Positions 1 to 35,651 of a DNA stretch of 54,195 nucleotides are shown one piece after another. Position 1 is the first letter of the stretch, and each line of letters opens with the position of its first letter. The notes under the pieces are model-generated. The model ran no database searches and was not told the origin of the DNA. It saw nothing but the letters and a program-made list of their open reading frames with translations. This stretch comes from Paracoccaceae bacterium. GTDB taxonomy: Bacteria > Pseudomonadota > Alphaproteobacteria > Rhodobacterales > Rhodobacteraceae. The translations under genes and the position numbers were made by a program. Where the stretch lies: contig JAPORQ010000005.1 of the NCBI GenBank assembly GCA_026710155.1, positions 1 through 54,195 on the forward strand, in the 5' to 3' direction.

Positions 1-45
1 GGGCAGATGCAGTTTGAATATCATCCTGACAAAATGGTGGATTGA
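1..45 (+). pseudogene. 3' end of an HsdS-like specificity gene (element cargo)
   Basis: The frame starting at base 1 ends in the residues YHPDKMVD and a TGA at 43-45. The decayed HsdS gene at 34124-34604 ends in YLDKLVD at the same distance from its element end. Only the last 14 codons are in the window, so whether the rest is intact cannot be seen. The type I specificity-subunit identity rests entirely on the similarity to the second copy. Confidence 0.5.
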
Positions 46-80
46 TTGTCAAACCCTGTAGATTCAAATATGTAATCCCC
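1..80. mobile_element. Right end of a small HsdS-carrying element (cut by window edge)
   Basis: Bases 60-80 (ending ATTCAAATATGTAATCCCC) match the right terminal repeat of the complete element at 34061-34640, and bases 1-45 match the end of that element's HsdS cargo. The two ends align almost without gaps over about 70 bases. Base 81 onward is endonuclease-coding sequence on the minus strand, so the element interrupts that gene. The 8 bases at 81-88 (CTTTTTTA) are the expected position of a target duplication, but the other copy lies outside the window. Boundaries are inferred from the complete copy. Confidence 0.65.
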
Positions 81-33368: not shown

Positions 33369-34060
33369 GTGAAATCGAAATCATCAGATTCACGATCTTC
33401 AGAATACCAAAAATTAGGGCCAAGGGTCAATCAAAACGACTTCAAAGTCAACACGAATTGGCTAGTGGTTCCCTTGGCATATTTGGCAAGGAGGCCAAAC
33501 TTCATGATATGTGAATCCACGAAGTAAAAGAACAAATCCTTGAGAAATTGAAACACGAACACCCCGAACTGTCCTTCCGTCATCGTGGAGAAATCACAAA
33601 AAAAAGAAATTCACGAACGGCTCGCGGAAATTGACCCTGGTCTTGGTCAAGTGCTAGTTGTCGAAAATGCCACAATTAAACCGGATGGTGTTATCATTGA
33701 GGTTTTGGATCATTCCAACCGATACAGAGCAGTTCTTGTTAGTGAATCCAAGCATCAAGGAAATGATGTTGAAAAAATCCGAGCAGGAATAAAACAAGGC
33801 AAAAACAAGAACCAAGATCGGATGGTTGCAGGAAACGCAATAGAACGCGTCCACAAGAATATCCGGGAAGTGAGGAACCTAATGCTTAACGAAGTTCATT
33901 TTCCTTATGTGGTTTTTCTACAAGGCTTGAACTTTGCTACAACAACATTCTTTGTTGAATCTCCAGAAGGTCGGTTGGTCAAAATTCCACATGACGCAGG
34001 GAACCTCAACCGTATTGATCGTGTTACAGGAAGTATTTATGGCATGGAGATTAATAAAAA

Positions 34061-34640
34061 CGGGATTACATATTTGATTAAGCAGGTTTACAATTTTCCT
34101 TCCGATCCGGATAATCCCACCTGATGAAACTTGGAGATGTCGCAGAGTTCCAAAGAGGAATCCCGATCACGCGGAAGGATGTTGTCGAAGGGGATGTTCC
34201 GGTTGTTTCAGGGTGAAGGAAGCCCGCATGTTTCCACAATGAGTCCAATCGCGAAGGGGAGGTGATAGCCGTCGCCGGATCGGGAGTGCATGCAGGTTTT
34301 GTGGGTTTCCGGACGGTTCCCGTCCGGCTGTCCATTTCCTTTTCAATCCATGCCGGCAATTCCATTCTGCTGCCAAGACACCTGCATTGGTTTTTGAGAA
34401 GGAGGTGACACCACATTCACCACCTGAATGAAGGTGCCGGTGTTCCCCATGTATACATCAGAGACCTGCAAACCATTCCAATATCCCCCCATCGAGGAAC
34501 AGGCGGGGATTGTTGGAAAACTGGATTGCTGGGAGGAATTGACGAGGGAAATCGAATTGAGGCAATCCCGGTTTGGGCATTATCTTGACAAACTGGTGGA
34601 TTGATCGCTTCAGGTGTGCTTAATCAAATATGTAATCCCG
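34061..34640 (+). mobile_element. 580-bp HsdS-carrying element with 24-bp perfect inverted repeats and 8-bp target duplication
   Basis: The left end CGGGATTACATATTTGATTA plus AGCA (34061-34084) is the exact reverse complement of 34617-34640. Both ends are flanked by AATAAAAA (34053-34060 and 34641-34648). The internal sequence carries only a decayed HsdS-like gene on the plus strand and no transposase, so it is non-autonomous. Eight-base duplications occur in several families (for example IS1595, IS66, IS256); I cannot assign one. A related end is at window position 60-80, also inside an endonuclease gene. Confidence 0.9.
34124..34604 (+). pseudogene. Type I restriction specificity subunit (HsdS) half-gene, decayed
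   Basis: The ATG at 34124 opens MKLGDVAEFQRGIPITRKDV, typical of the start of an HsdS target-recognition domain. It is followed, past a TGA at 34214 where a glycine codon is expected, by KPACFHNESNREGEVIAV. A second TGA is at 34406. After a C6 run at 34485-34490 the frame shifts and reads EEQAGIVGKLDCWEELTREI, the helical spacer region, ending KLVD at 34602. It is one recognition domain with one helix, a half-subunit. There is no hsdM or hsdR nearby. It is the sole cargo of the 580-bp element. Confidence 0.75.
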
Positions 34641-34824
34641 AATAAAAACCATTGCCAGAATATTTATGTTGAATTAGATGGAAAGGTACCAATGCTTCAA
34701 GTAGCTTCATTCTATTTCCAAAGTAAACCATGGAATGCAGAGGATATGGCTGAAGTTCTTTGGGACATGGTTATGACCTCCCCAAATATTCAGTCAGATT
34801 CCCTACCGAAAAGAAGAAAATAAA

Positions 34825-35651
<827 letters not shown>

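Follow-up and report, generated by a model that had tools for sequence, protein, structure and literature searches.

The analysed stretch of DNA, hereafter the window, comprises 54,195 nucleotides and represents contig C23 of an assembly of 3.13 Mb (83 contigs, 98% complete). It contains an EcoRI-like endonuclease gene in two parts, a left part at 33585..34060 (+), which matches the Pfam EcoRI family at 2.3e-65, and a right part at 34649..34823 (+), separated by an element of 580 bp (34061-34640). The element is bounded by two 24-bp terminal inverted repeats whose arms are 100% complementary to each other, the left one, of IS1595 type (CGGGATTACATATTTGATTAAGCA), at 34061..34084 (+) and the right one at 34617..34640 (-). 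Outside the repeats, the same 8-bp target-site duplication, AATAAAAA, stands at 34053..34060 and at 34641..34648, with 8/8 positions in agreement (no strand is assigned to either copy). An N6/N4 DNA methyltransferase ORF, recognised by profile match, lies outside the element at 34908..35651 (+), where it adjoins the EcoRI-like gene as its probable partner. In addition, the contig starts inside a further member of the hsdS element family, a decayed copy whose right end, identified by family match, occupies 1..80 (+) of the window.

The host gene would be continuous without the element, since the two flanks match adjacent, non-overlapping stretches of the EcoRI chain. When searched alone, the left flank aligns with residues 46-198 of this 261-residue PDB chain (E 1.5e-49), and the right flank with residues 200-249 of the same chain, a match that is weak when taken alone (E 0.07) and in which five EcoRI sequences are top-ranked. 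The codon phase is also preserved across the insertion junction. That the element might be an ordinary internal part of EcoRI-like genes is ruled out by flanks that match adjacent EcoRI residues. Upstream of about 33585 the EcoRI-like gene has lost its frame as well, its match beginning only at residue 46, so that the element is not the sole lesion of the gene.

Within the element, a leader (34087..34123, +) with a promoter-like TTTACA-17-GATAAT, which ends 8 nt 5' of an ATG, precedes an hsdS remnant with a single target recognition domain (TRD) of type B (34124..34604, +). The promoter-like site is a consensus match and not evidence of activity, two such sites being present in the region of the window copy vs 0.7 +/- 0.8 expected in shuffled sequence; comparison of the copies reveals that the leader is kept across the hsdS elements. 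The remnant has 47.5% identity with TRD2 (residues 183-303) of the HsdS encoded by a copy on contig C70, and its C-terminus reads ...DKLVD followed by a stop. It has one TRD, in-frame stops and a frame change in place of the open frame with two TRDs of an HsdS, it is absent from the 7 Methylase_S matches of the genome, and it was detected by tblastn to C70 and to relatives. No transposase frame was found within the 580 bp by open reading frames and translation, so that the element is regarded as a derivative of the IS1595 family and not as an autonomous member. The first-pass annotation had described perfect 24-bp inverted repeats with an 8-bp duplication, a clean in-frame insertion in an EcoRI-like gene and a decayed hsdS piece as the sole cargo with no transposase, and each of these features holds on closer analysis.

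The element is one of many in the genome, where it matches 56 stretches that merge to at least 40 places. When these 40 places were scored by module, 13 contained TRD A without B, 12 contained B without A, one (C70) contained both, and 14 contained neither, the last being end pieces or places cut at contig ends. These counts are lower bounds, 40 of 89 first-look candidates having been scored, and many copies are truncated at contig ends, so that a single copy can account for two places. The copy-level comparisons covered 398,232 bases of the 3.13-Mb genome, picked around the matches and later extended by 13 stretches, and L001-L008, which duplicate other loci, were left out of the end and duplication listings.

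Both ends were located in 15 hsdS copies, five of which are bordered by exact 8-bp duplications that differ from one another: AATAAAAA in the window, AATAAATT in C25, AAAAATTC in C70, AATATAAA in C48 and ATATTTTT in a second C25 copy. None of the 210 cross pairings of flanks between copies gives an exact match. At the other 10 of the 15 copies the exact duplication is absent or imperfect, reaching 7/8 in C20b, 6/8 in C32 and at most 5/8 in the remaining eight (C27, C20a, C59, C10b, C33, C65, C43 and C51). Only exact duplications are counted here, because AT-rich flanks give near matches in the cross pairings as well (8 of the 210 reach 7/8 and 18 reach 6/8). The ten copies without an exact duplication would be compatible with a spread of the family through homologous or segmental duplication instead of transposition, but that account is contradicted for the five copies with different exact duplications (0/210 in the cross pairings), and the sequences past the ends differ from copy to copy, so that we regard it as extremely improbable.

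Sites that resemble the ends with three mismatches or fewer number 173 in the genome, vs 3 for the reversed pattern; together with the exact duplications (5/15 vs 0/210), this rules out a chance repeat. The left terminal repeat of the window element is identical at 20/24 positions to the end of a transposase-bearing IS of the same genome. An IS1595-family insertion sequence of 1,494 bp runs off the end of contig C73 and resumes at the start of C36, the two pieces being joined over the contig gap via a 26-base overlap. It contains an open transposase frame of 330 codons, AAATAATA flanks it on both sides, and its ends are identical at 20-23 of 24 positions to the seven hsdS-element ends compared. 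The genome yields 16 DDE_Tnp_IS1595 matches in all, some of which are pieces of one gene, and 8-bp duplications are also present at the C73/C36 element and at the transposase-bearing L205, L216 and L218. From the shared ends and duplications we infer that the hsdS elements are mobilised in trans by IS1595-type transposases. The central proposal of the first-pass annotation, a non-autonomous element carrying a type I specificity domain, which was to be backed by further copies with different 8-bp duplications and by a transposase with the same ends, is thus supported by multiple copies, differing duplications and an IS with similar ends.

A second end type, GGGGCTTATAAAGAYRGGTTG, occurs at 39 sites vs 0 for its reversed form and also bounds hsdS copies, among which C48 and the second C25 copy have exact 8-bp duplications, so that the cassette has come to lie between ends of more than one kind. 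No transposase with this second end type was found in the stretches read. Several copies share nested double ends, in which the hsdS-element end is accompanied, 8 bp on, by a second IS1595-type end (L009 2639-2694, L017 2845-2900, and the contig ends of G000 C3 and C12, G000 being the present genome); these give the impression of an outer end that was captured and used again. The genome also contains, at L036, L049, L050, L053, L054 and L062, a MITE of 180-181 bp whose ends resemble GGGAATTATATACTTGATTGAATTTC and which is bordered by exact 8-bp duplications, that of L049 sitting within a broken IS1595 copy.

The copy on contig C70 is intact. C70:54511-55677 (L023 2512-3678) is a complete element of 1,167 bp between exact 8-bp duplications, and its cargo is an open HsdS frame of 355 aa with a Pfam Methylase_S match (1.3e-39) in two stretches. 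The best solved sequence relative of this protein is the S subunit of EcoR124II (2.1e-28). Its predicted fold (pLDDT 89.1, from a 16-sequence alignment) follows the order TRD, helix 129-168, TRD, and helices 307-329 and 335-354, with long helical spacers, and the nine top PDB matches of this fold are type I S subunits or complexes of them, followed by BsaXI and others. The two halves of the protein align mutually, and the protein starts directly at the first TRD. Pfam, sequence and predicted fold agree in giving it the two TRDs and conserved helical regions that characterise a type I HsdS. Its promoter-like TTGCAA-16-TATAAT, which also ends 8 nt 5' of the ATG, is a consensus match of a kind found 6 times vs 2.1 expected. 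C70 may yet produce a functional S subunit. Four same-genus genomes (G008, G006, G001 and G005) have kept the right-hand neighbour gene of C70 without the element at the fetched loci, where no precise empty site was found and the spacer is unalignable.

A promoter-like leader and the HsdS C-terminus are common to complete copies, and only the TRD between the two varies. In alignments with type A copies, the window element matches through the leader to position 87-94 (111 in C10b), about seven residues into the protein, and then again from 433-448, which corresponds to the start of the C-terminal conserved region, while the alignment with type B copies, C25, C27 and C8 among them, spans the middle. 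The breakpoints between types A and B coincide with the TRD edges, and leader, start and stop are common to both types; modular TRD exchange is shown by these alignments. An exchange like the domain movement (DOMO) of type I S genes may underlie this pattern, in which the breakpoints lie at TRD edges and the halves of the C70 HsdS align as repeats; no intermediates were seen. A search for more TRD types with 109 HsdS-like frames from other loci returned, in the searched stretches, nothing beyond the listed places and the C51 operon. The 14 places without a TRD match may harbour a further TRD type.

Translation of 22 copies, seven of them cut at contig ends, left C70 as the only intact one, and in C10b the single-TRD frame is almost open, interrupted by one inner stop. 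When differences from TRD2 of C70 are distributed over the first, second and third codon positions, they amount to 13/9/33 for C25, 4/3/11 for the window copy and 3/3/11 for C72, three comparisons that share ancestry and are not independent. The third-position excess suggests that the TRD B lineages parted as coding genes. Type A copies differ from C70 almost evenly over the codon positions (C20a 13/10/18; C10b 16/15/21; C41 24/13/17; C20b 16/18/19; C32 22/13/17; C39b 16/11/13; C48 15/16/16), which is the pattern expected for dead copies. By this measure, the scattered copies appear to have decayed later without visible constraint.

These data bear on the possibility that an IS1595-type MITE captured a dead hsdS piece by chance and multiplied, in which case the hsdS content would be irrelevant and the TRD types accidental. 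The proposal accommodates the single intact copy among the 22 translated (with the seven cut by contig ends), the even codon-position differences of the type A copies and the presence, at six loci, of MITEs (180-181 bp) whose ends are similar and whose duplications are exact. However, it is at odds with the intact two-TRD gene of 355 aa within a complete element, with the third-position excess between C70 TRD2 and the type B copies, and with the fact that types A and B have the same leader, start and stop and differ only in the TRD. Chance capture is a serious but unlikely explanation.

It is highly likely, in our judgement, that the family consists of transposase-less mobile insertion cassettes (MICs) with IS1595-type ends, whose hsdS cargo was mostly reduced to one TRD and which were moved in trans, multiplied and mostly decayed. 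According to this model, the ancestral cargo would have been a two-TRD hsdS like that of the intact C70, and recombination at the TRD-flanking repeats, to which the breakpoints at domain edges point, would have dropped one TRD to produce type A or type B cassettes with the same start, stop and ends. IS1595-family transposases of the same genome would recognise these ends, and each insertion of a cassette would duplicate 8 bp of the target, as the shared ends and duplications suggest. The single-TRD cassettes would have multiplied and then decayed, and most present copies, the window copy included, would be non-coding hitch-hikers. The model is weakened by the ten copies without an exact duplication, by the even codon-position differences of the type A copies, by the second end type, for which no transposase was found, and by the contig gap across which the C73/C36 element is joined. 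It might alternatively be postulated that the HsdS domain benefits its own element, for instance through DNA binding that regulates or targets the transposase. The TRDs of HsdS are, as is generally known, specific DNA binders, and the cargo seems to have stayed coding for some time; against this, MITEs and transposase-bearing elements with similar ends have no HsdS domain, and a service to the element is very unlikely.

The only typical hsdM of the genome (in an assembly 98% complete) lies at the C51 locus, in the order hsdR-hsdS-(379-aa ORF)-hsdM, and two further N6_Mtase matches on C29 fall in proteins of 515 aa and 1011 aa with another layout. A type I restriction-modification system has hsdM and hsdR beside hsdS; the hsdS cassettes do not have them, and the typical hsdM sits with its own hsdS on C51. 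The C51 HsdS is 25% identical to that of C70 in a local alignment of 311 columns. When the HsdM-like proteins encoded close to C70-like HsdS genes of other species are compared with the C51 HsdM, identities come to about 35-44%, and no well-matched HsdM for C70 was found in the genome. It is not likely that the C70 HsdS works with the C51 HsdM. A present function is doubtful, since C70 is the only intact copy of the 22 translated and no well-matched HsdM accompanies it. As for the 379-aa ORF between hsdS and hsdM (L077 8347-9486, G000 C51), it encodes, judged by eye, a putative ATPase-like protein.

The cassettes could also be viewed as a mobile store of specificity, supplying S subunits, or TRDs by recombination, through which a type I enzyme would be given other targets in trans and the host or the elements would gain new recognition sequences. 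Two TRD types in the same frame behind a promoter-like leader, the intact C70 and the DNA methyltransferase and nuclease genes borne by other IS1595-type transposons here would all suit such a store. Nevertheless, there is one typical hsdM, on C51, its neighbouring HsdS is 25% identical to that of C70, the C51 HsdM stands at the identity given above to the HsdM-like proteins near C70-like HsdS elsewhere, and the majority of the cassettes are dead, all of which makes a working store improbable. We likewise give little credence to transposon-borne TRD shuffling in the stronger sense, in which IS1595-mobilised hsdS cassettes would constitute a moving TRD store and specificity would shift via insertion and inter-copy recombination.

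Several other IS1595-type transposons of this genome carry cargo. L218 91-2414 (G000 C11) contains a transposase, a Dam-family methyltransferase and a PD-(D/E)XK nuclease between exact duplications (AAAAAAGA) and, judged from its predicted genes, is a whole type II-like system on a single IS1595-family transposon. L217 181-2752 (G000 C13) combines a transposase with an N6/N4 methyltransferase and a 204-aa ORF without a Pfam match (duplication TCTTTTTT), and L219 146-3174 (G000 C21) a transposase with a methyltransferase-HNH fusion and a 171-aa ORF without a Pfam match (duplication CAAATAAT); the limits of these two are less sure, because their ends depart from the pattern at up to 4 positions and were chosen with the help of the duplication. 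L050 1304-3860 (G000 C55) has IS1595-type ends, no transposase, a methyltransferase-T5orf172 fusion, a SocA/Panacea protein and an exact duplication (GTTTGATT). Transposase-less cassettes with exact duplications also carry a ClpP-like SDH-type serine proteinase (L046 1101-2494, G000 C82) and, in a same-genus genome, an NYN-domain protein (L210 1840-2838, G005 C48). A repeated family of frames of 160-225 aa with the common ending RNCLCGR (L083, L088, L055 and L249) occurs within or close to elements whose ends are of the IS1595 type or of the second type. A solitary hsdS cargo fits with the restriction-type cargo of the IS1595-type transposons in this genome.

Beyond this genome, the exact end pattern is present in 6 of 9 same-genus genomes, the host included, and hsdS genes in 7 of 9. 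In other species, at least 588 stretches were matched and at least 570 encode a relative, of which 80 were kept; among the matches listed, an HsdM-like match is present at 71 of the 80 loci and an HsdR-like match at 69, the gene order having been read for L111. A search for flanking repeats with an exact 8-bp duplication around hsdS gave no candidate in the 104 loci offered (the 80 kept and 24 from the same genus, several from the same genes, with loci without a blast hit passed over uncounted) and recovered 2/2 positive controls, the test being blind to elements without an exact duplication, such as 10/15 copies in this genome. The DNA of the C70 element has a match in 2 of 61 genomes, the host included, the other being G003 with only 68- and 35-base pieces, and exact matches to the end pattern in viral contigs number 0.

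With respect to the IS1595 family, the window element has similar terminal repeats and 8-bp duplications, and the same genome encodes transposases in which Zn_ribbon_IS1595 and DDE_Tnp_IS1595 domains are present, but the element itself has no transposase. IS1595 family members can reportedly carry passenger genes, as Siguier et al. are said to have set out in 2009. MICs, first described in Bacillus cereus, are non-autonomous, without their own transposase and mobilised by insertion sequences, according to the available part of PMC3281130, and in qnrS2 cassettes a mic takes the place of the transposase gene, according to that of PMC4444841. The window family resembles them in having a passenger gene instead of a transposase (an hsdS remnant in the window, an intact hsdS in C70), ends like those of a resident IS (20-23/24) and a duplication of the length made by the partner IS (8 bp). 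It differs from them in that the passenger is hsdS, in its many copies with two exchangeable TRDs, and in its IS1595-type ends. The available parts of PMC9296519, PMC12707154, PMC3031569, PMC3281130, PMC6211672, PMC3317919, PMC4444841 and PMC3077401 do not describe a cassette with IS1595-type ends that contains hsdS. The type of cassette and the IS family are known, and for hsdS as a modular, multiplied cargo no description was found in a mostly non-subscription literature, in which a precedent is possible.

Among systems that alter type I specificity, the tvr locus of Streptococcus pneumoniae is a type I locus whose phase variation proceeds through excision and reintegration, in the available account (PMC6265443). 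It differs from the hsdS cassettes in being, as far as that account goes, a single locus. To our knowledge, no transposon ends or target duplications are known from it. Movement of restriction genes by insertion sequences is a likeness to IS-linked restriction-modification systems, which, in the accessible text of PMC3031569, are moved complete, as cointegrate or composite forms, whereas here a solitary S gene lies between terminal repeats. A further parallel is provided by DOMO of type I S genes, in which, in the portion available of PMC3077401, TRDs are exchanged via flanking repeats and two TRDs can become one by recombination. The hsdS cassettes would likewise have exchanged TRDs at flanking repeats and had two TRDs reduced to one, but DOMO takes place within and between chromosomal S loci in that source, and here the cassettes are transposable and scattered over the genome. 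While the movement of type I TRDs is explained there by recombination at TRD-flanking repeats, a solitary hsdS between transposon ends would move TRDs without homology at the target, and could explain orphan hsdS genes and half-S fragments distant from any hsdM. The family illustrates in this way a possible shuffling and spread of recognition domains by transposons.
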